Origin: Cryobacterium sp. M96
Lineage (GTDB): Bacteria; Actinomycetota; Actinomycetes; Actinomycetales; Microbacteriaceae
Direction: 5' to 3'
Assembly: GCF_002929845.1 (NCBI RefSeq)
Contig: NZ_PJJS01000042.1
Coordinates: 1 to 64,000 of the forward strand
DNA: 64,000 bases
A program made the translations under genes and the position numbers. Shown in pieces: positions 15,192 to 47,727 of the stretch (its first letter is position 1; every line of letters begins with the position of its first letter). The notes under the pieces are model-generated. The model was given only the letters and a program-made list of their open reading frames with translations. It ran no database searches and was not told where the DNA came from.

Positions 15192-16514
15192 GTGACCGAA
15201 ACCTCAGCATTCCGCACCGACCGGTACGAACTCACCATGGTGGACGCCGCGATCCAAAGTGGAACCGCCGCACGAGAGTGCCAGTTCGAGGCCTTCGCCC
15301 GGCACCTCCCCTCCGGCCGCCGCTACGGCATCGTGGCCGGCACCGGGCGGCTGCTCGATCTCATCCGGGCCTTCCGGTTCACGGATGCCGAACTCACCTG
15401 GCTGAGAGACAACCGTGTGGTGCGCGAGCCCACCATCGCCTGGCTCGCCGACTACGCCTTCCGCGGCACCATCTGGGGCTACCGGGAAGGCGAGGCCTAC
15501 TTCCCGGGCTCGCCCCTGATCACGGTGGACGGCACCTTCGCCGAATGCGTCATCCTCGAAACCCTGATTCTCAGCGTGCTCAACTACGACAGCTCCGTCG
15601 CCAGCGCGGCCGCACGGATGGTCTCGGTCAGCCTGGGCCGCCCCCTCGCCGAAATGGGTTCGCGCCGCACTGGCGAGTACTCCGGGGTCGCCGCCGCCCG
15701 GGCCGCCTACATAGCCGGTTTCGCCTCGACCAGCAACCTGGAGGCCGGCCGCAGCTGGGGCGTGCCCACCATGGGCACCGCCGCCCACTCCTTCACTCTC
15801 CTGCACGACAGCGAGGAAGACGCCTTCCGTGCCCAGATCGCGGCCTTCGGACCGGCCACCACTCTGCTCGTGGACACCTTCGACGTCGCCGCGGGCATCG
15901 AACTGGCCGTCAGGGTGGCCGGACCGGCGCTCGGGTCGATCCGGATCGACTCCGGCGACCTGCCGACCAGGGTGGCGGAGGCCCGCAGCCAACTGGACTC
16001 GCTCGGTGCCGTCAACACGCACATCACCGTCACCAGCGACCTCGACGAGTTCTCCATCGCCGCCCTGTCCGCGTCGCCCGTGGACGCCTTCGGCGTGGGC
16101 ACATCGGTGGTGACCGGTTCGGGCTCCCCCGCCGCCGGGATGGTCTACAAACTCGTCGCGCACCGCGACGACGCCGGAGACTGGGTGCCCGTCGCCAAGA
16201 CCTCACCCGCGAAGAGCTCGGTCGGCGGCCGAAAGCGGGCCGTGCGCCGGCTCGACTCCGCCGGGATCGCGCGCGCCGAGGTCGTCCTGATCGGCGAGGA
16301 TCCGGCCGACTCCACTCCGCCCGCAGAGCCTTCGGGCCGGGACCGCGTGCTGCTGGTGCCTCTGATCACCGACGGCGTGATCGACGAAAGTTACCTCGGG
16401 GCGGCCGGCACGACCCGCGCCCGCGCGCACCACGCAGCCGTCATGCAGGAATTGCCGATCGAGGCCTTCCGCCTCGGGCGCGGCGACCCCGTCATCCCGA
16501 CCCTGTACCGGTAG
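15192..16514 (+). CDS. pncB: Nicotinate phosphoribosyltransferase
   Basis: A 440-residue enzyme converting nicotinate and PRPP (with ATP) to nicotinate mononucleotide, the salvage entry to NAD. Motifs: FRTDRYELTM at the N-terminus, GTAAHSFTLLH with the histidine that is phosphorylated in the family near residue 197, RIDSGDL near 255, and FGVGTSVVTGSGSPA near 300. The GTG start is 52 bp after fabF. It complements the de novo NAD operon at 39-45 kb. No copy of the GTCAnnnTGAC operator is seen in its short leader. Confidence 0.94.
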   Translation: MTETSAFRTDRYELTMVDAAIQSGTAARECQFEAFARHLPSGRRYGIVAGTGRLLDLIRAFRFTDAELTWLRDNRVVREPTIAWLADYAFRGTIWGYREGEAYFPGSPLITVDGTFAECVILETLILSVLNYDSSVASAAARMVSVSLGRPLAEMGSRRTGEYSGVAAARAAYIAGFASTSNLEAGRSWGVPTMGTAAHSFTLLHDSEEDAFRAQIAAFGPATTLLVDTFDVAAGIELAVRVAGPALGSIRIDSGDLPTRVAEARSQLDSLGAVNTHITVTSDLDEFSIAALSASPVDAFGVGTSVVTGSGSPAAGMVYKLVAHRDDAGDWVPVAKTSPAKSSVGGRKRAVRRLDSAGIARAEVVLIGEDPADSTPPAEPSGRDRVLLVPLITDGVIDESYLGAAGTTRARAHHAAVMQELPIEAFRLGRGDPVIPTLYR

Positions 16515-38128: not shown

Positions 38129-38884
38129 ATGGCTCGGACTCTGATCATCATCCCGACCTACAACGAGCAGGGCAACGTCGCGTCGATCGTGTCCCGGGTG
38201 CGCGCGAGCGTGCCGGCGGCCGACGTTCTGGTCGTCGATGATTCCTCCCCGGACGGCACGGGGCAGTTGGCTGACGCGCTGGCCGCCACCGATTCCCAGG
38301 TGCACGCCCTGCACCGCTCCCGGAAGAGCGGCCTCGGAGCCGCCTATCTCGAGGCCTTCGCCTGGGGGCTCTCCCGCGGCTTCGACCGACTGGTGCAGCT
38401 CGACGCTGACGGATCGCACCTGCCAGAGCAACTGCCGACCCTGCTCGAGGCCGCGGAGACGGCGGATGTGGTGTTGGGCTCCCGCTGGGTCCCGGGCGGA
38501 ATGGTGCGGAACTGGCCGTGGCACCGGCGTCTGCTGTCGCGGGGCGGATCGGTCTACTCGCGCGTGCTGCTCCGGCTGCCCCAGCGAGACGTCACCGGCG
38601 GTTACCGCGTCTTCACGGCGCATGCCCTCCGGCGAATGGACCTCTCCGGCGTCGAGAGCCTGGGCTACTGCTTCCAGATCGACATGCTGCTGCATGCGGT
38701 TCGGGCCGGGCTCAGCGTTGTCGAGAAGCCGATCACGTTCGTGGAGCGCACCGTCGGTTCCTCGAAGATGAGTGCCGCGATCGTGGCCGAGGCGATGGCC
38801 CGTGTCACGATCTGGGGTCTCACCGGCAGGAACGCTCGCCGCGTTGCCGCGTCTGCACCGACATCCCTGCCGCGTGCCCGCTGA
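38129..38884 (+). CDS. Polyprenol monophosphomannose synthase
   Basis: A 251-residue GT2 enzyme of the DPM1 group that transfers mannose from GDP-mannose to polyprenyl phosphate. It opens with LIIIPTYNEQGN and has VLVVDDSSPDGTG near residue 33, LVQLDADGSHLPEQ near 87 (DAD metal site), WVPGGMVRNWPWHRRLLSRG near 117, and YCFQIDMLLHAVRAG near 180. There is no C-terminal membrane anchor; the neighbouring gene may supply it. It is in a two-gene unit with the GT39-like protein. Confidence 0.92.
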   Translation: MARTLIIIPTYNEQGNVASIVSRVRASVPAADVLVVDDSSPDGTGQLADALAATDSQVHALHRSRKSGLGAAYLEAFAWGLSRGFDRLVQLDADGSHLPEQLPTLLEAAETADVVLGSRWVPGGMVRNWPWHRRLLSRGGSVYSRVLLRLPQRDVTGGYRVFTAHALRRMDLSGVESLGYCFQIDMLLHAVRAGLSVVEKPITFVERTVGSSKMSAAIVAEAMARVTIWGLTGRNARRVAASAPTSLPRAR

Positions 38885-38911
38885 CCGGACCCGCAGGCCG
38901 CCCCATAGGGC

Positions 38912-38940
38912 GTGACTTCTGGTCAGAGTGACTATAAGAT
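38912..38940 (+). promoter_or_regulatory. Predicted promoter of the nrtR-nad operon
   Basis: A -35-like GTGACT at 38912-38917 is separated by 17 bp from a -10-like TAAGAT at 38935-38940. The first operator (38922-38932) lies in the spacer. The predicted transcription start would fall near 38947. Confidence 0.45.
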
Positions 38941-38969
38941 GAATCCATTCAGTTAGAGTCACAATGACC
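38921..38969. promoter_or_regulatory. Pair of NrtR-type operators (GTCAnnnTGAC)
   Basis: Two palindromes of the form GTCAnnnTGAC occur at 38922-38932 and 38958-38968, just before the nrtR gene. The blocks around them (38921-38937 and 38953-38969) are inverted copies of each other with 14 of 17 bases matching. Their centres are 36 bp apart. The first lies in the promoter spacer, the second just downstream of the predicted start, as expected for repression. Confidence 0.6.
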
Positions 38970-38987
38970 TTTACTTGGTGAATAACA

Positions 38988-39692
38988 GTGAATGCGCGAA
39001 TAAACACCCAGCTTGAGGCGGCCCTCGCCGTGTCGACAGTCATTTTCGCCCTGCGGCCGGATCCGGAATCCGGCCACTCGACCCTGTGGCTGCCGCTTGT
39101 ACGCCGCACCCGGGAACCCTACCTCGGTCAGTGGGCGTTGCCCGGCGGCGGCCTGCGGGCCGATGAGCGCCTGGCCGGCGCGGCCGCGCGCGCCCTGCGC
39201 GAGACCACGGGCCTGACCCCCAAGTACCTCGAGCAGCTCTACACCTTCGGGGATCCGGGGCGTTCCCCCGGCGGCCGGGTCGTCTCGGTCGTCTACTGGG
39301 CGCTCGTCGAGTCCGGTGAGGCGGCGCTGGCCGTCGAGGACGAGAACGTGCGGTGGTTTCCGGCCGACCACCTGTCGCCGCTCGCCTTCGACCACAACCT
39401 CATCGTGGAATACGCCCTCTGGCGCCTGCGCACCAAGGTGGAGTACTCCCGCATCGCGCACGCGTTCCTCGGCGAGACCTTCACGCTCGCGCAGCTGCGC
39501 GAGGTGCATGAGGCCGTGCTGCAGAAGGCCCTCGACCCGGCCAACTTCCGCCGCACGATCGAGGGGTCAGGCACCGTGGTCGACACCGGCCAGCGCGTAG
39601 CCGGCGTACCGCATCGGCCGCCCCGCCTCTACCGCTACAACGATTCCGTTCATGCCACCACTCCGGGTGCGCTCGAGCCGGCCATCGGCTGA
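38988..39692 (+). CDS. nrtR: NrtR-family NAD biosynthesis regulator (Nudix plus winged helix)
   Basis: A 234-residue protein. Residues 12-150 are a Nudix fold with GDPGRSPGGRVVSVVYWALV. The Nudix box is degraded: where GX5EX7REUXEEXGU is expected it reads RALRETTGL after the first Glu, so hydrolysis is unlikely. Residues 155-225 form the winged-helix part (TLAQLREVHEAVLQ; RVAGVPHRPPRLYRY) typical of NrtR. NrtR proteins repress NAD genes and sense ADP-ribose or NAD metabolites. The GTG at 38988 lies just after two operator palindromes, and nadA follows by 82 bp, which strongly supports this role. Confidence 0.9.
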   Translation: MNARINTQLEAALAVSTVIFALRPDPESGHSTLWLPLVRRTREPYLGQWALPGGGLRADERLAGAAARALRETTGLTPKYLEQLYTFGDPGRSPGGRVVSVVYWALVESGEAALAVEDENVRWFPADHLSPLAFDHNLIVEYALWRLRTKVEYSRIAHAFLGETFTLAQLREVHEAVLQKALDPANFRRTIEGSGTVVDTGQRVAGVPHRPPRLYRYNDSVHATTPGALEPAIG

Positions 39693-39774: not shown

Positions 39775-41085
39775 ATGACCATCGCATCGGTCGACCAGAC
39801 CATTCGACTCATCAGCACGGGAGCTGCCACCGGCAGCACGTGCAGCCCCGACCTGCTCACCGCTCCGTGGGAGTTTGATTCCGGCACGCCGGGCTATGGC
39901 CCGGGGTCGTCGATGGGCGATGTCATCCCCACCGGGTCACCGCGGCAGGGTGAGCTGCCCGAGGTCTACCGTCGCGCGTCGACGGAGGAACTCGGCGACC
40001 GCATCCGTACCGCCAAGGCCACGCTCGGCGACCGGGTCGTGGTCCTCGGGCACTTTTACCAGCGCGAGGAGGTGTTGGCGCACGCGGACTTCGTGGGCGA
40101 CTCCTTCCAGCTGGCGCAGGCCACGAAGAGCCGTCCGGATGCCGAGGCGATCGTCTTCTGCGGAGTGCACTTCATGGCCGAAACCGCCGACTTGCTTTCC
40201 ACGCCGGAGCAGGCGGTCATACTACCCAACCTCGCCGCCGGCTGCTCGATGGCCGATATGGCCGATATCGACTCCGTCACCGATTGCTGGGAACAGCTGG
40301 AGGACCTCTACGGCAGCGAGCAGGGCGTCGACGGCCGCGTGCCCGTGATCCCGGTCACCTACATGAATTCCTCGGCCGCGCTGAAGGCGTTCTGCGGCGA
40401 GCACGGCGGCATCGTCTGCACCTCCTCCAACGCCGAGACCGTGCTCGAGTGGGCCTTCGCCCGCGGCAGCCGCGTTCTCTTCTTCCCCGACCAGCACCTC
40501 GGCCGCAACACCGCCAAGGCGATGGGGGTGCCCCTCGAGCGGATGCCGATGTGGAACCCGCGCAAGGCCCTCGGCGGCAACACGGCCGAGGAGCTCGAGG
40601 CCGCCCAGGTCGTGCTCTGGCACGGGTTCTGCAGCGTGCATAAGCGCTTCACGGTGGACCAGATCACCGCGGCCCGCCAGTCGCACCCGGACGTGCGCGT
40701 GGTCGTGCACCCGGAGTGCCCGATGGGCGTCGTCGACGCCGCCGATTCCTACGGCTCGACCGACTTCATCAAGAAGGCCATCGAGGCAGCCCCGGCCGGG
40801 TCCACGTTCGCCATCGGCACCGAGATCAACCTGGTGCAGCGGCTCGCCGCACAGCACCCCGAGCACACCATCTTCTGCCTCGACCCGGTGGTCTGCCCCT
40901 GCTCCACCATGTACCGCATCCACTCGGGCTACCTGGCCTGGGTGCTCGAAGCGCTGGTCGGCACCGCGGACCGCGCGCCCGAGGTGCTCAATCGCATCCA
41001 GGTATCGGGCGAGGTTGCCGGCAACGCCCGCGTCGCCCTCGAACGGATGCTTTCCGCCAAGCCGCCCGTCTCCATCGAGGCCTGA
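39775..41085 (+). CDS. nadA: Quinolinate synthase
   Basis: A 436-residue enzyme condensing iminoaspartate with dihydroxyacetone phosphate to quinolinate using a [4Fe-4S] cluster. Candidate cluster cysteines are in VFCGVHFMAETA, GIVCTSSNAE and CLDPVVCPCSTMY. Other marks are GHFYQREEVL near residue 99, GCSMADMA near 158 and NTAKAMGVPLERM near 243. The first 55 residues are an extra leader seen in actinobacterial NadA. The ATG at 39775 has AAGGAG upstream. It is the first enzyme gene of the nad operon and should depend on the NifS-type desulfurase at its end. Confidence 0.96.
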   Translation: MTIASVDQTIRLISTGAATGSTCSPDLLTAPWEFDSGTPGYGPGSSMGDVIPTGSPRQGELPEVYRRASTEELGDRIRTAKATLGDRVVVLGHFYQREEVLAHADFVGDSFQLAQATKSRPDAEAIVFCGVHFMAETADLLSTPEQAVILPNLAAGCSMADMADIDSVTDCWEQLEDLYGSEQGVDGRVPVIPVTYMNSSAALKAFCGEHGGIVCTSSNAETVLEWAFARGSRVLFFPDQHLGRNTAKAMGVPLERMPMWNPRKALGGNTAEELEAAQVVLWHGFCSVHKRFTVDQITAARQSHPDVRVVVHPECPMGVVDAADSYGSTDFIKKAIEAAPAGSTFAIGTEINLVQRLAAQHPEHTIFCLDPVVCPCSTMYRIHSGYLAWVLEALVGTADRAPEVLNRIQVSGEVAGNARVALERMLSAKPPVSIEA

Positions 41086-41087
41086 CC

Positions 41088-42728
41088 GTGACCCGCGTGC
41101 TCGTCGTCGGCAGTGGGCTGGCCGGACTCATCGCCGCGGTGCGTGCGACGGATGCCGGCCACCAGGTCACCCTCGTCACGAAAGCGGCCCTGCCCGACAG
41201 CAACACCCGCTGGGCCCAGGGCGGGATCGCCGCGGCCATGTTCCCCGACGACTCGGTCAAGTCACACGTACAGGACACCCTGCGAGCCGGGGCCGGACTC
41301 TGCGACCCGGTCGCAGTGCACGTGCTCTGTTCCGAGGGACCGGCTCGGGTGCGGGACCTGATCCGGTTCGGTGTGGACTTCGACCGCGACGAGTCCGGGG
41401 TGACCCGCGGACTGGAGGCTGCCCACTCCCGCTCGCGGGTGCTGCACGCCGGCGGGGACGCCACGGGCGCAGCCATCGAGGCTGCCCTCGTGGCGACGGT
41501 GCGTGAACGGGCCGCCCGCTCGCTGCGGGGCGTGGGCGCCCGCCTGCGCGTGCAGGAACACACAATGCTGGTTGATCTGACCGTGCAGGACGGTCGCGTG
41601 ACCGGGGCTGTCCTCCTCGGGCCCGACGAAGCACTCCGCACGATCCTGGCCGACACGGTGATCCTGGCGACCGGCGGTGCCGGCGAGCTCTTCCCGCACA
41701 CCACGAACCCGGCTCTGGCGACGGGCGACGGCGTGGCCGCCGCGTGGCGCGCGGGGGCATCCGTCGCCGACCTCGAGTTCTACCAGTTCCACCCGACCGC
41801 ACTCGCCGTTCCCGGTACCCCGCTGGTCTCCGAGGCGGTGCGCGGGGAAGGCGCCGTGCTGCGAAATGCGTCGGGCCACCGCTTCATGCTCGACCTGCAC
41901 CCCGATGCGGAACTCGCCCCGCGCGACATCGTGGCCAGAGGCATCGCCCGAGAAATGACCAGCCAGGGCGGCGAACCGGTGCGACTGGACGCCACCGGTC
42001 TCGGCCGCGAACTTCTCGAGCGACGCTTCCCGACCATCACCGCGGCCTGCCGTGCTGCCGACCTGGACTGGGCCGTCGAATCGATCCCGGTCGCCCCGGC
42101 GGCGCACTACTGGATGGGCGGGGTGCTCACGGATATCTGGGGCCGCACCAGCCTGCCCGGCCTGTTCGCCGTGGGGGAAGTGGCCCGCACCGGCGCCCAC
42201 GGCGCCAACCGGTTGGCCTCCAACTCTCTGCTCGAGGCGGCCGTGTTCGCCGACCGGTCCGTGCGCGCGCTGCGCCTGCCGGTTCGGGTGTCGGCGGGGG
42301 TCTCGGTCGTGACCGGCTCGACCACCGGGGGGTTGCCTGCCGGCGTCGACCGTGACGCGGTACAGCAGCTGATGTGGGAGTGCGCGGGAGTGCTGCGGAG
42401 TGGGGAGAAACTCGCCGAGGCATCCGTCACCCTGGCCGACTGGGCCACCCGCCCGACGGGCCCGGACGAAACCACTGCACCTAATATGCGGGTTCGGGCA
42501 TATGAAGACACCAACCTGCTCGACCTGGCGCGGGTCACCGTGGCTTCCGCCCTGGCCCGGGAGGAATCGCGCGGCGCACATCACCGCTCCGACTACCCCG
42601 ACGGCCGGCCCGAGTTCGCCCGCACCGTCGCCTGGACCCGCGGCACAGCCCCGGACACAGCCGACGGCATGCGGAGCACCCTGAATCTGGACCACCCCAC
42701 TGAGGCCGAGGAGGCCATTGCATGCTGA
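41088..42728 (+). CDS. nadB: L-aspartate oxidase
   Basis: A 546-residue FAD enzyme oxidising L-aspartate to iminoaspartate for NadA. It opens with the dinucleotide motif LVVGSGLAGLIAAVRA, then NTRWAQGGIAAAM near residue 42, and HPTALAVPG near residue 235. A flavin-binding TGLFAVGEVARTGAHGANRL-like segment (LFAVGEVARTGAHGANR) is near residue 360. The GTG at 41088 is 2 bp after nadA. The end overlaps nadC by 7 bp, showing tight coupling. Confidence 0.95.
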   Translation: MTRVLVVGSGLAGLIAAVRATDAGHQVTLVTKAALPDSNTRWAQGGIAAAMFPDDSVKSHVQDTLRAGAGLCDPVAVHVLCSEGPARVRDLIRFGVDFDRDESGVTRGLEAAHSRSRVLHAGGDATGAAIEAALVATVRERAARSLRGVGARLRVQEHTMLVDLTVQDGRVTGAVLLGPDEALRTILADTVILATGGAGELFPHTTNPALATGDGVAAAWRAGASVADLEFYQFHPTALAVPGTPLVSEAVRGEGAVLRNASGHRFMLDLHPDAELAPRDIVARGIAREMTSQGGEPVRLDATGLGRELLERRFPTITAACRAADLDWAVESIPVAPAAHYWMGGVLTDIWGRTSLPGLFAVGEVARTGAHGANRLASNSLLEAAVFADRSVRALRLPVRVSAGVSVVTGSTTGGLPAGVDRDAVQQLMWECAGVLRSGEKLAEASVTLADWATRPTGPDETTAPNMRVRAYEDTNLLDLARVTVASALAREESRGAHHRSDYPDGRPEFARTVAWTRGTAPDTADGMRSTLNLDHPTEAEEAIAC

Positions 42729-43582
42729 CCATGAACGCCATCGACACCGTCGTGCGCGCCGCGCTCGAGGAGGACGCCCCCTGGGGTGACCTCACCTCAC
42801 AGGTGCTGATCCCCGCCGACGCCGCCGCGACCGCGCAGCTGGTCGCCCGGGAATCCGGCGTCTTCAGCGGTGGTGCCGTGTTCGCGGCGGCCTTCCGACT
42901 GACCGACGCGCGCATCGTCGTTCGGATGCTCGTGGCCGACGGCACCGTCTTCGACGCCGGTGACACCCTGGCGGAAGTGTCGGGGTCCGCCCGCGGCATT
43001 CTGCAGGCGGAGCGCATCGGCTTGAACTTCGTGCAGCGCATGAGCGGGATCGCCACACTGACAGCGCTCTACGTGGCCGAGACGGCCGGCACCCGCGCCC
43101 GCATCGTCGACACCCGCAAGACCACCCCGGGCCTGCGTGTGCTGGAACGTGCCGCGGTGCGCGACGGCGGCGGCCACAACCACCGCTTCAGCCTCTCCGA
43201 CGCGATCATGGCCAAGGATAACCACCTGGCCGTGCTAACCGCGGGCGGCCTGAACCTCACCGAGGCGCTCCGGCAGGTGCGCGACCGCATCTCCCACACC
43301 ACGCACCTCGAGGTGGAGGTGGACCGGATCGACCAAATCGAGCTTGTGCTTGCCGCCGGCGTCGACACGATCATGCTCGACAACTTCAGCCCCGACGACC
43401 TGCGCGAGGGCGTACGCCTCACGGGCGGCCGAGCACGCGTGGAGGCCAGCGGCGGCGTCTCTCTGCTGACCGTGCGCGGCATCGCCGAGACCGGCGTCGA
43501 CATCATCTCGGTCGGGGCTATCACGCACAGCGTGCGCTCCCTCGACCTCGGCCTCGACGTCGTCATCCTCACCGAGGGCTGA
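42722..43582 (+). CDS. nadC: Nicotinate-nucleotide pyrophosphorylase (carboxylating)
   Basis: A 286-residue quinolinate phosphoribosyltransferase making nicotinate mononucleotide. It has EDAPWGDLTSQVL at the N-terminus, DTRKTTPGLRVLE near residue 127, GGGHNHRFSLSDAIMAKDNHL near residues 146-165 (first twenty residues only considered) and VDTIMLDNFSPDDLR near 217. The ATG at 42722 lies inside the nadB end; an ATG at 42731 is the alternative. It is the third gene of the operon and completes de novo NAD synthesis to the mononucleotide. Confidence 0.96.
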   Translation: MLTMNAIDTVVRAALEEDAPWGDLTSQVLIPADAAATAQLVARESGVFSGGAVFAAAFRLTDARIVVRMLVADGTVFDAGDTLAEVSGSARGILQAERIGLNFVQRMSGIATLTALYVAETAGTRARIVDTRKTTPGLRVLERAAVRDGGGHNHRFSLSDAIMAKDNHLAVLTAGGLNLTEALRQVRDRISHTTHLEVEVDRIDQIELVLAAGVDTIMLDNFSPDDLREGVRLTGGRARVEASGGVSLLTVRGIAETGVDIISVGAITHSVRSLDLGLDVVILTEG

Positions 43583-43593
43583 CCGGTCCGGCC

Positions 43594-44739
43594 ATGATCT
43601 ATCTCGACAACGCCGCGACCACCCCGGTGCGACGGGAAGTTCTCGAGGTGCTCTGGCAGCAGCTCGCGGGCCGGTTCGGCAACCCGTCGAGCCACCACCG
43701 AGTGGGTGAGGCCGCGGCCGCCGCGCTGGCCGAGGCGCGGGCCATGGTCGCGGGCGTGCTCGGGTGTCGGTCGGCCGACGTTGTGTTCACGACCGGCGGC
43801 ACCGAGTCCGACAACCTCGCGATCAAGGGCATCGCCCTGGGCGCTCCACGCGGCCGTCACCTCATCACGACGCCGATCGAGCACGAGGCGGTACTCGAAT
43901 CCTGCGACTATCTGCGCCGCCTGCACGGCTTCGAGGTGACGCTCCTGGACCCGGATGCCTCCGGCCGGGTGGATCCGGAACAGCTCCGCGCCGTGATCCG
44001 CCCGGATACCACCCTCGTCTCGGTGCAATACGCCAACAACGAGGTCGGCACCGTTCAGCGGCTCGCGGAACTGTCAGCCATCGCCCAGGGCGCCCGCGTG
44101 CCGCTCCACACCGACGCCGTGCAGGCGGCCGGCTGGCTTTCGGTCGACGTGGGGGCTCTCGGCGTCGATGCCCTGAGCCTGTCGGGCCACAAACTCGGCG
44201 CACCTCCCGGCATCGGGGTGCTTTTCCTGCGCCGCCGCATCGCGGTCGAACCGGTGCTGCACGGCGGCGGTCAGGAGCGCGGGCGCCGCAGCGGAACGGA
44301 GAACGTGCCCGGGGCGCTGGCGCTGGCGACCGCACTGCGCCTCGCCGAGGCGGAACGCACGGAGGCAGCGCCCCGCATCACCGCGCTGCGGGATGCCTTC
44401 ATCACCACGGTTCTGAGCGGCACACCGTCGGCCCGGCTCACCGGCCACCCGACGGAGCGTCTGCCGGGCACCGCCTCGTTCGTCTTCCCGGGCACGAGCG
44501 GCGAGGCGGTGTTGCTCGAGCTGGAACAGCGCGGCATCGTCTGCTCGAGCGGGTCGGCCTGCGCGGCCGACAGTGACGAACCGTCCCACGTGCTGACCGC
44601 TCTGGGCATCCCGGCTGAGGTCGCCCAGACCGCCGTGCGGTTCACGCTGGCATCGACGACCACAGCAGCGGATGCGTCTGAAGCGGCCGCATCCGTTCAG
44701 GCCGCCGTGGGCACCGTCCGCAGTCTCGGCCGAGGCTGA
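43594..44739 (+). CDS. Cysteine desulfurase (NifS/IscS family)
   Basis: A 381-residue PLP enzyme that removes sulfur from cysteine. The PLP lysine is in LSGHKLGAPPGIG near residue 195, and the catalytic cysteine in CSSGSACAADSDEPSHVL near residue 312. The start ATG is 11 bp after nadC. In nad operons this enzyme supplies sulfur for the NadA iron-sulfur cluster (the NifS-like role). The last 20 residues are variable. A long GC-rich hairpin follows the gene at 44751-44801. Confidence 0.93.
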   Translation: MIYLDNAATTPVRREVLEVLWQQLAGRFGNPSSHHRVGEAAAAALAEARAMVAGVLGCRSADVVFTTGGTESDNLAIKGIALGAPRGRHLITTPIEHEAVLESCDYLRRLHGFEVTLLDPDASGRVDPEQLRAVIRPDTTLVSVQYANNEVGTVQRLAELSAIAQGARVPLHTDAVQAAGWLSVDVGALGVDALSLSGHKLGAPPGIGVLFLRRRIAVEPVLHGGGQERGRRSGTENVPGALALATALRLAEAERTEAAPRITALRDAFITTVLSGTPSARLTGHPTERLPGTASFVFPGTSGEAVLLELEQRGIVCSSGSACAADSDEPSHVLTALGIPAEVAQTAVRFTLASTTTAADASEAAASVQAAVGTVRSLGRG

Positions 44740-44929: not shown

Positions 44930-45003
44930 GGCCGTCTGGCCAGCGCCCTAAGGTTATAAGTAAGAGGCGATAAGCCCAAGGTGGGCCGCCAAAAAGGGAC
45001 ACA

Positions 45004-47727
45004 ATGACAATAATCGACAAACCAGTCACCGAGTCACTTGCCACTCAAATTGACTCTCTGGTTAAAGCCGCTCAGGTCGCGCTTCTGGATTACGCGAACT
45101 TCACGCAGGAACAAATCGACCACATCGTTAAGAAAGCCTCGGTGGCTGCTCTCAGCAAACACGCCGAGCTTGCCGTTCACGCCGTAGCCGAAACCGGCCG
45201 TGGCGTATTCGAAGATAAGGCCGTTAAAAATCTTTTCGCATGCGAACACGTTACGAACTCGATGCAAAACCTTAAGACCGTCGGCGTTATCAGCCGAGAC
45301 GACATTACCGGCATTACTGAGATCGCTGAGCCGGTCGGCGTGATTTGCGGTGTGACCCCCGTTACGAACCCCACCTCGACCGCGATCTTCAAGTCGCTCA
45401 TCGCACTGAAGACCCGCAACCCGATTGTTTTCGGTTTCCACCCGGGCGCCCAGCAGTCCTCTGTGGCCGCAGCGCGCGTCGTGCGCGACGCCGCCATCCT
45501 CGCCGGTGCACCGGCAAACTGCATCCAGTGGGTTGAAACGCCGTCCCTCGAGGCCACCAGCCTGCTGATGAACCACCCGGGCGTCGCAACCATCCTCGCC
45601 ACCGGTGGCAACGCCATGGTCCGGGCCGCGTACTCCTGCGGCAAGCCCGCCCTCGGCGTCGGAGCGGGCAACGTTCCCGCCTTCATCGAGAAAAGCGCCA
45701 AGCTCAAGCGTGCCATCAACGACGTCGTGCTCTCCAAGTCTTTCGACTACGGCATGATCTGCGCGTCGGAGCAGGCCGTCATCATCGAAGAGCCGCTCTA
45801 CGCAGAAGCCATGGCCGAGTTCAAGATCCTGCACACCTACCTGGTCACCCCGGCCGAGAAGCTTCTCCTCGAGGACTACATCTTCGGAGTCCAGGCCAAC
45901 TCGACCAACTGTGGCGAGGCCAAGCTCAACGCCGCCGTCGTCGGCAAGTCGCCGGTCTGGATCGCCCAGCAGGCCGGATTCACCATCCCGGCCGACACAT
46001 CGATCATCCTGGTCGAGGTCGCCGGAGTGGGACCGAACGAGCCGATGACCCGCGAAAAGCTGGCACCCGTTCTCGCCGTGCTGCATGCCAAGGACGCTGA
46101 AGAGGGCATTTCGCTCTCCGAGCAGATGGTTGAATTCGACGGCCTCGGCCACTCGGGCTCCATCCACAGCGAAAACCCGGCCATCATCGAAGAGTTCGGA
46201 ACCCGCGTCAAGGCGGTCCGGATCATCACCAACGCTCCCAGCTCGCTCGGTGGTATCGGTGACATCTACAACGCGTTCATCCCGTCATTGACACTCGGCT
46301 GTGGCTCGTACGGACACAACTCCGTCTCGAACAACGTCTCCGCGATCAACCTCATCAACGTCAAGCGCATCGGCAGAAGGAACAACAACTTGCAGTGGTT
46401 CAAGGTCCCCGCCAAGACGTACTTCGAGCCGAACGCCATCCGTTACCTGGCGGACATGCGCAACGTCGAACGTGTCACGATCGTGACCGACTCGACCATG
46501 ACCCGCCTCGGTTTCGTCGACAAGATCCTCGACATCCTGAACCGGCGCGAGGGCCGCGTCGCACTGCAGATCATCGACAACGTGCTGCCCGAACCGACCG
46601 TCTCAGCGGTCGAAAAGGGTGCCGCCGAAATGCGGGCCTTCAAGCCTGACACCATCATCGCCCTCGGCGGCGGCTCGCCGATGGACGCCGCGAAGGTCAT
46701 GTGGCTGCTGTACGAACACCCCGAAATCGAATTCTCCGACATGAAGGAAAAGTTCTTCGACGTGCGCAAGCGCGCGTTCAAGTTCCCCGACCTCGGCGAA
46801 CTGGCCAAGCTCGTCTGCATCCCCACCACTTCGGGCACCGGTTCGGAAATGACCCCGTTCGCCGTGATCACCGACGAAGTCACCGGAGTCAAGTACCCGC
46901 TCGCGGACTACGCCCTCCTGCCGACCGTCGCGATCATCGACCCCGTGCTCACGGCCATGATGCCGTCGTTCCTGGTTGCTGACTCGGGTTTCGACGCTCT
47001 CACACACGCCACCGAGGCCTACGTGTCCGTCTACGCGAACGACTTCACCGACGGCCTCTGCCTGCACGCGATCAAGCTGATCTTCGAGAACATCGTGACC
47101 AGCGTCAACGGCACCACCGCCAGCACCGACGGTGAGGTCATCAAGGCCCGCGAGAAGATGCACAACGCCTCGTCGATCGCCGGGATGGCGTTCGGCAACG
47201 CGTTCCTGGGTATTTGTCACGCGATGGCTCACGTCACCGGCGCGCAGCTCCACCTGATCCACGGCCGGGTCAACGCGACCTACCTGCCGCACGTGATCCG
47301 TTACAACGGCCTCATCCCCACCAAGCTCACCAGCTGGCCCAAGTACGAGAGCTACATCGCCCCGGAGCGCTTCCAGCAGATCGCGAAGCACCTCGGCCTC
47401 CCGGCGTCGACCCCGGCGGAGGGCGTCGAGTCCTACGCCCTGGCCGTGGAGAAGCTGCGCGACCTGGCCGGCATCAAGCCGTCCTTCCAGGCGCAGGGTG
47501 TGCCGGAAGAGGACTTCATCAGCCGCCTCGACAGCCTGGCCATGGGTGCTTACGGTGACCAGTGCGCACCGGCCAACCCGCGCATGCCGATGCTCGACGA
47601 CATGCACACCATCATGGAGGCCGCGTACTACGGCACCTCTTTCAACGAGGTCCGCGCCGCTCGCGCGGCCGTCGAAGCAGTGGCACCGGCCGAAGAAAAG
47701 AAGTCGGCCCGCAAGGCAGGCAAGTAG
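45004..47727 (+). CDS. adhE: Bifunctional acetaldehyde-CoA/alcohol dehydrogenase
   Basis: A 907-residue fusion enzyme reducing acetyl-CoA through acetaldehyde to ethanol, regenerating NAD. The N-terminal aldehyde dehydrogenase (about 1-440) has the catalytic cysteine in DYGMICASEQAVI near residue 254. The C-terminal iron alcohol dehydrogenase (about 455-870) has GGGSPMDAAKVMW, DSGFDALTHATEAYVS and ICHAMAHVTGAQLHLIHG with the metal histidines. The final 20 residues are Ala/Lys-rich. Start ATG with AAGGGA upstream. Codon choice is more biased and the first 250 bases are AT-richer than neighbours, which suggests strong expression. It lies alone, with a terminator after it. Confidence 0.96.
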   Translation: MTIIDKPVTESLATQIDSLVKAAQVALLDYANFTQEQIDHIVKKASVAALSKHAELAVHAVAETGRGVFEDKAVKNLFACEHVTNSMQNLKTVGVISRDDITGITEIAEPVGVICGVTPVTNPTSTAIFKSLIALKTRNPIVFGFHPGAQQSSVAAARVVRDAAILAGAPANCIQWVETPSLEATSLLMNHPGVATILATGGNAMVRAAYSCGKPALGVGAGNVPAFIEKSAKLKRAINDVVLSKSFDYGMICASEQAVIIEEPLYAEAMAEFKILHTYLVTPAEKLLLEDYIFGVQANSTNCGEAKLNAAVVGKSPVWIAQQAGFTIPADTSIILVEVAGVGPNEPMTREKLAPVLAVLHAKDAEEGISLSEQMVEFDGLGHSGSIHSENPAIIEEFGTRVKAVRIITNAPSSLGGIGDIYNAFIPSLTLGCGSYGHNSVSNNVSAINLINVKRIGRRNNNLQWFKVPAKTYFEPNAIRYLADMRNVERVTIVTDSTMTRLGFVDKILDILNRREGRVALQIIDNVLPEPTVSAVEKGAAEMRAFKPDTIIALGGGSPMDAAKVMWLLYEHPEIEFSDMKEKFFDVRKRAFKFPDLGELAKLVCIPTTSGTGSEMTPFAVITDEVTGVKYPLADYALLPTVAIIDPVLTAMMPSFLVADSGFDALTHATEAYVSVYANDFTDGLCLHAIKLIFENIVTSVNGTTASTDGEVIKAREKMHNASSIAGMAFGNAFLGICHAMAHVTGAQLHLIHGRVNATYLPHVIRYNGLIPTKLTSWPKYESYIAPERFQQIAKHLGLPASTPAEGVESYALAVEKLRDLAGIKPSFQAQGVPEEDFISRLDSLAMGAYGDQCAPANPRMPMLDDMHTIMEAAYYGTSFNEVRAARAAVEAVAPAEEKKSARKAGK

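Follow-up and report, generated by a model that had tools for sequence, protein, structure and literature searches.

The 64,000-nucleotide stretch of Cryobacterium sp. M96 DNA analysed here (the window) carries the genes nrtR, nadA, nadB, nadC and nifS in a row (Table 1). Family profile matches bore out this gene order, which an earlier note on this DNA had proposed, and the same holds for NrtR as the first gene. The protein that starts at 38988 combines a Nudix-like domain (PF00293, residues 35-132, 59.1 bits against a cut-off of 21.1) with an NrtR winged helix (PF21906, 62.5 bits against a cut-off of 27). Compared by eye with the Nudix signature (PMC4666351; all papers cited by PMC number are represented by excerpts), its Nudix box reads G-GLRAD-E-RLAGAAA-RALRETTGL, in which two glutamates of the REUXEE motif are replaced. 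The closest solved relative by sequence is the Shewanella oneidensis NrtR (SoNrtR, 3gz5/3gz6, E 8.3e-31). The top NCBIfam match reaches 115.9 bits, for which the cut-off is 400; this low score likely reflects a narrow model and would count against that equivalog, not against the Pfam-defined family. The genes follow the NdnR-type order nrtR-nadA-(nadB)-nadC-nadS, as they do in relatives, and nrtR forms a cluster with NAD genes that have a palindromic operator in common, as used to recognize NrtR NAD regulons.

Table 1. Features of the nrtR promoter and the NAD gene cluster (positions in the window)
Feature	Position	Strand	Remarks
-35-like element GTGACT (weak)	38912..38917	+	17-bp spacer to TAAGAT; position weakly conserved in 68 dual promoters
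Operator 1, TTCTGGTCAGAGTGACTATAA	38917..38937	none	In the -35/-10 spacer; 1 mismatch to 21-bp palindrome; conserved
-10-like element TAAGAT	38935..38940	+	TA[TA]GAT nearly invariant across 68 dual promoters
Operator 2, TTAGAGTCACAATGACCTTTA	38953..38973	none	Directly past the inferred transcription start; 1 mismatch to 21-bp palindrome
nrtR	38988..39692	+	GTG start; degenerate Nudix box in a Nudix-like domain, then NrtR winged-helix domain
nadA	39775..41085	+	Quinolinate synthase; PF02445; NF006884 and TIGR00550 above cut-off
nadB	41088..42728	+	L-aspartate oxidase; GTG start inferred; TIGR00551 above cut-off
nadC	42722..43582	+	Nicotinate-nucleotide diphosphorylase; TIGR00078 above cut-off
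nifS/nadS-like gene	43594..44739	+	Cysteine desulfurase; PF00266; TIGR03402 the top NCBIfam match, below cut-off

Upstream of nrtR the core GTCAnnnTGAC occurs twice without mismatch, at 38922-38932 (GTCAGAGTGAC, centre 38927) and at 38958-38968 (GTCACAATGAC, centre 38963). The 36 bp between the two centres agree with the earlier description, and 19 bases separate the end of the second palindrome from the GTG of nrtR. The mirrored 17-bp blocks that had been reported exist as well, with 14 of 17 positions identical between 38953-38969 and the reverse complement of 38921-38937. The operator that had been proposed, GTCAnnnTGAC, is indeed present as a palindrome, but its extent of 11 bp did not hold: sequences of relatives revealed a longer unit, the 21-bp palindrome TTAnnGTCAnnnTGACnnTAA.

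The predicted promoter is anatomically plausible, judged by the conservation of TA[TA]GAT in the promoters with two operators. GTGACT-17 bp-TAAGAT matches 8 of 12 consensus bases, and a promoter scan detected no promoter here at its threshold. The right arm of operator 1 coincides with the first three bases of TAAGAT. Transcription likely starts near 38947, and operator 2 would therefore lie directly downstream of the start, which fits the idea that the palindromes straddle the promoter, one in the spacer and one after the start. Between the operators lies a perfect small palindrome, TGAATCCATTCA, at 38940-38951, and some relatives carry similar ones (TGGTGCCACCA, TGGGTTCACCCA). The longest stems in 54 distinct but related inter-operator intervals averaged 2.98, compared to 2.36 in shuffles, an excess too weak to claim this palindrome as a real element.

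We compared these sites with the background of the genome. The 11-bp core is over-represented in the 3.3-Mb genome, with 81 exact copies versus 17 of the reversed control pattern, and in the window it occurs four times exactly and 38 times with at most one mismatch (25.6 expected). The core alone is consequently weak evidence, and statistics based on it were discarded as proof of operators. Since GTCA and TGAC are so common, the palindromes could have arisen by chance. The extended motif argues against this: with at most one mismatch, the 21-bp palindrome TTANNGTCANNNTGACNNTAA was found at two places in the genome only, operators 1 and 2. At up to three mismatches the genome holds 21 copies and the control 20, so that the remaining matches are background. 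Furthermore, the genome has a single exact core pair whose centres lie 29-41 bp from each other. Together with the conservation in genus and family and the empty randomised regions described below, this makes a chance origin extremely improbable.

NrtR was found in 55 of 57 Cryobacterium genomes and in 196 of 299 genomes sampled from the family. The exact pair pattern was recovered in 33 of the 57; sorted by eye, 29 of these represent the same promoter, while the matches in G015, G028, G047 and G049 lie elsewhere and look like chance. Scoring the region upstream of nrtR in the 55 genus members, M96 included, yielded 48 dual, 6 single and one below threshold. For 46 other genera of the family, represented by one genome each, the numbers were 20, 14 and 12, and Markov-randomised upstream regions scored by the same criteria gave neither a dual nor a single site in 505. 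Thus, a dual or single site precedes nrtR in 54/55 genus members and 34/46 other genera, and the dual criterion fails in 7/55 and 26/46, respectively. The earlier note had named absence of the motif upstream of orthologous operons as grounds for giving up the prediction; the motif is present in most genus members and many of the family genera examined. The best match had 3 mismatches in 12 of the 13 genomes below threshold and 4 in the other one, and the genus member among them (G037) holds both sites with 3 mismatches each. G049 (L126), counted as single, has three copies with operator 1 duplicated in tandem. In G025 operator 1 is retained and operator 2 is poorer, and four genus members (G012, G022, G023 and G046) kept operator 2 and show no operator 1 within 4 mismatches.

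The spacing of 36 bp had been taken to suggest cooperative or looping binding of dimers, which would give a sharp switch. Pairs were sought at centre distances of 30-40 bp. The pair is kept across genera, and its spacing is limited to 33-36 bp in the genus, 32-38 bp in the family and 34-38 bp in Corynebacterium pairs. A dimer of the NrtR-family protein AraR covers 25 bp (PMC4666351), a coverage that would leave neighbouring dimers 7-13 bp apart, and both sites could therefore be occupied together. However, the spacings seen (32, 33, 34, 35, 36 and 38 bp) span 3.05 to 3.62 helical turns of 10.5 bp each, a drift over half a turn that leaves no fixed helical face. The commonest ones (34-36 bp, 56 of the 68 dual promoters) amount to 3.2-3.4 turns, which likewise speaks against helical phasing. 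In addition, a 36-bp DNA loop formed by small dimers is mechanically implausible on general grounds, and the four genus members with operator 2 alone do without a partner site. We therefore rejected looping, for which the 68 dual promoters show no helical phase; helically phased cooperation is likewise not supported. A cooperative or looping switch as a whole seems unlikely. In the preferred reading two dimers would act independently, and cooperation by direct contact is conceivable.

A wider survey covered 80 loci, in which sites were scored at up to 2 mismatches to the 21-bp palindrome. Pairs were found in nine loci (L001-L004 and L009-L013), from Cryobacterium, Leifsonia, Agromyces, Corynebacterium, Lumbricidophila and Occultella. 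Single sites were detected in four Micrococcaceae loci (L015, L017, L018, L026) and in seven of the eight Bifidobacterium loci. Several stretches from Bifidobacterium, Micrococcaceae (Glutamicibacter/Arthrobacter) and Corynebacterium hold the palindrome without any mismatch. In a Microbacterium locus where nrtR comes last (L019), the single site follows the operon: it has 2 mismatches and is located about 135 bp upstream of the nadA match. At this threshold no site was found in L005-L008, L014, L016, L021, L027 and L030. These include Microbacterium (L016, L021, L027), Plantibacter (L014) and MAGs (L005, L007, L008) in which nrtR precedes nadA, as well as L006, which has a pair with 3 mismatches in each site. 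Among the 50 loci L031-L080, none of them titled Actinomycetota, five had a site, located more than 4 kb from nrtR in L035 and L043 and within the nrtR match itself in L039, L048 and L067. The copy on the Bdellovibrionota contig L043 (1430-1450) has one mismatch to the operator and lies about 4.5 kb before nrtR.

NrtR matches were present in 34 of 151 Corynebacterium genomes, two of them (G439, G358) with in-frame stops, and sites were scored in L011 and 20 others. The arrangement of sites differed with the NrtR type: 10 of 11 strains whose NrtR is 64-68% identical carry the dual arrangement and the remaining one (G395) has one site, nine with 44-52% identity have one site each, and G410 (42%) has none. 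In an NrtR tree of 37 rows (our own and L001-L036) the dual label clusters, requiring 4 changes compared to a mean of 9.7 after shuffling; labels were set by hand, and L006 was labelled dual despite the 3 mismatches in each of its sites. A single origin of the dual label is not shown by this 37-row tree.

The actinobacterial rows of the same set share the stretch D[PLV][ASG]N[FY]RR in the winged helix, including eight rows that lack a site at threshold, while six rows from Chloroflexota, Ectothiorhodospiraceae and one archaeon read DKRNF and have no operator site. Binding of the Mycobacterium smegmatis NrtR (MsNrtR) is lost on changing D167, T169, N170, R173, K179 or R196 (PMC6800001), and the first four of these residues appear to fall within the same stretch. 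The winged-helix residues fit a reading of the motif by NrtR, a correspondence that is confounded by phylogeny. Both sites might instead be bound by another regulator, for which there is a precedent in WhcA, reported to repress the C. glutamicum operon in addition to NdnR (PMC11995493). This is quite improbable, since the motif accompanies the operon and the NrtR type across relatives and, as a local autoregulator would predict, occurs at up to one mismatch nowhere else in the genome.

An autoregulated NAD operon, as the earlier note had predicted, is strongly supported by NrtR as first gene and by the conserved operator pair. Both palindromes are thus very probably NrtR operators, bound by the 38988 protein, through which nrtR-nadA-nadB-nadC-nifS, presumably expressed as one five-gene transcript, would be autorepressed at high NAD and released at low NAD. 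A dimer on operator 1 would fill the spacer between the -35 and -10 elements together with the beginning of the -10, and polymerase would be blocked. On operator 2, at roughly +6 to +26, a dimer would block initiation or escape. While NAD is plentiful the operon would stay repressed by its own product, and a fall in NAD would release it. Candidates for the effector, by analogy, are NAD as corepressor, as in C. glutamicum, and/or ADP-ribose as the releasing ligand, with NAD no less probable than ADP-ribose. More speculatively, Microbacteriaceae and some Corynebacterium may share a distinct NrtR lineage with a conserved two-operator promoter. Operator 2 would be essential in such promoters, and operator 1, which shares bases with the -10 element, would be an accessory that tightens repression or steepens the response to NAD without a fixed helical phase. 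This proposal is possible but rather doubtful.

The earlier note had suggested a search of other nad and pnc genes of relatives for the motif. In this genome, pncB (nicotinate phosphoribosyltransferase) and two nadE-like loci carry no operator, with best matches of 6 and 5 mismatches, respectively. The pncB gene lies within the window at about 15192-16514; a PF04095 search missed it (a false negative), and it was located by TIGR01513, above cut-off, and PF17767. The idea of a strain devoid of nicotinate salvage was dropped with this finding. Two places with 2 mismatches (C21:19996 and C31:47132) have no evident NAD gene among the open frames of their 3-kb flanks, inspected by eye. Since pncB and nadE have no operator and no further place with at most one mismatch exists in the genome, the regulon appears to consist of the nrtR-nadA-nadB-nadC-nifS operon alone. 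Among some 18 places with 3 mismatches, the one in the window (44993-45013) was inspected. It overlaps the start codon of adhE, scores the same in L001 and drops to 6 mismatches in L002, and is probably a chance match tied to the coding start.

The nearest gene order among described systems is that of the C. glutamicum operon ndnR-nadA-nadC-nadS, which likewise begins with an NrtR-family repressor followed by nadA, nadC and a NifS-type desulfurase. Judged from its published description, it differs by nadB, which is present in Cryobacterium. In C. glutamicum, NdnR represses ndnR-nadACS and NAD serves as its corepressor (PMC11995493), NAD strengthens NdnR binding (PMC11995493, PMC6800001), and the NAD operon is induced at pH 6 (PMC2807442; for NdnR see also Teramoto 2012, via PMC11995493, PMC4666351, PMC6800001 and PMC2807442). 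The paired sites of Cryobacterium recur in other Corynebacterium strains whose NrtR is of the close type. MsNrtR is an autorepressor of nadA-nadB-nadC that was freed from DNA by 50 mM ADP-ribose, and it shares with the system described here the NAD genes concerned and the degenerate Nudix box (PMC6800001). In contrast, its site spans 23 bp, GTTTTCGA-N7-TCGAAAAC, and the available part of that paper describes one palindrome (PMC6800001). Searching about 38601-39100 for this 23-bp site gave a best match with 6 mismatches.

SoNrtR (3gz5/3gz6) has the same domain order as the 38988 protein. Its motif and its regulon are different from those of the Cryobacterium NrtR. DNA binding of SoNrtR is suppressed by ADP-ribose (PMC4666351). 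Bacteroides AraR, also of the NrtR family, similarly has two tandem 21-bp sites upstream of a target operon, which were bound in gel shifts, but there the sites are 3 or 42 nt apart and the effector is L-arabinose (PMC4666351). A literature search beyond Rodionov 2008, Huang 2009, Teramoto 2012 and RegPrecise revealed no title on the 21-bp motif and no paper with both Cryobacterium and NrtR. Autoregulation by NrtR is a known kind of control, of which the Cryobacterium pair is a conserved new example, and the general picture of bacterial NAD control is unchanged. The analysis gives a precise and checkable 21-bp predicted NrtR operator for Microbacteriaceae, and promoters that differ naturally in spacing (32-38 bp) or have lost operator 1 provide material for testing a joint action of paired operators. 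While other actinobacterial NrtRs, as in most of the Bifidobacterium and Micrococcaceae loci, go with one site, Cryobacterium has a pair, and one-operator and two-operator promoters thus coexist among related NrtRs.
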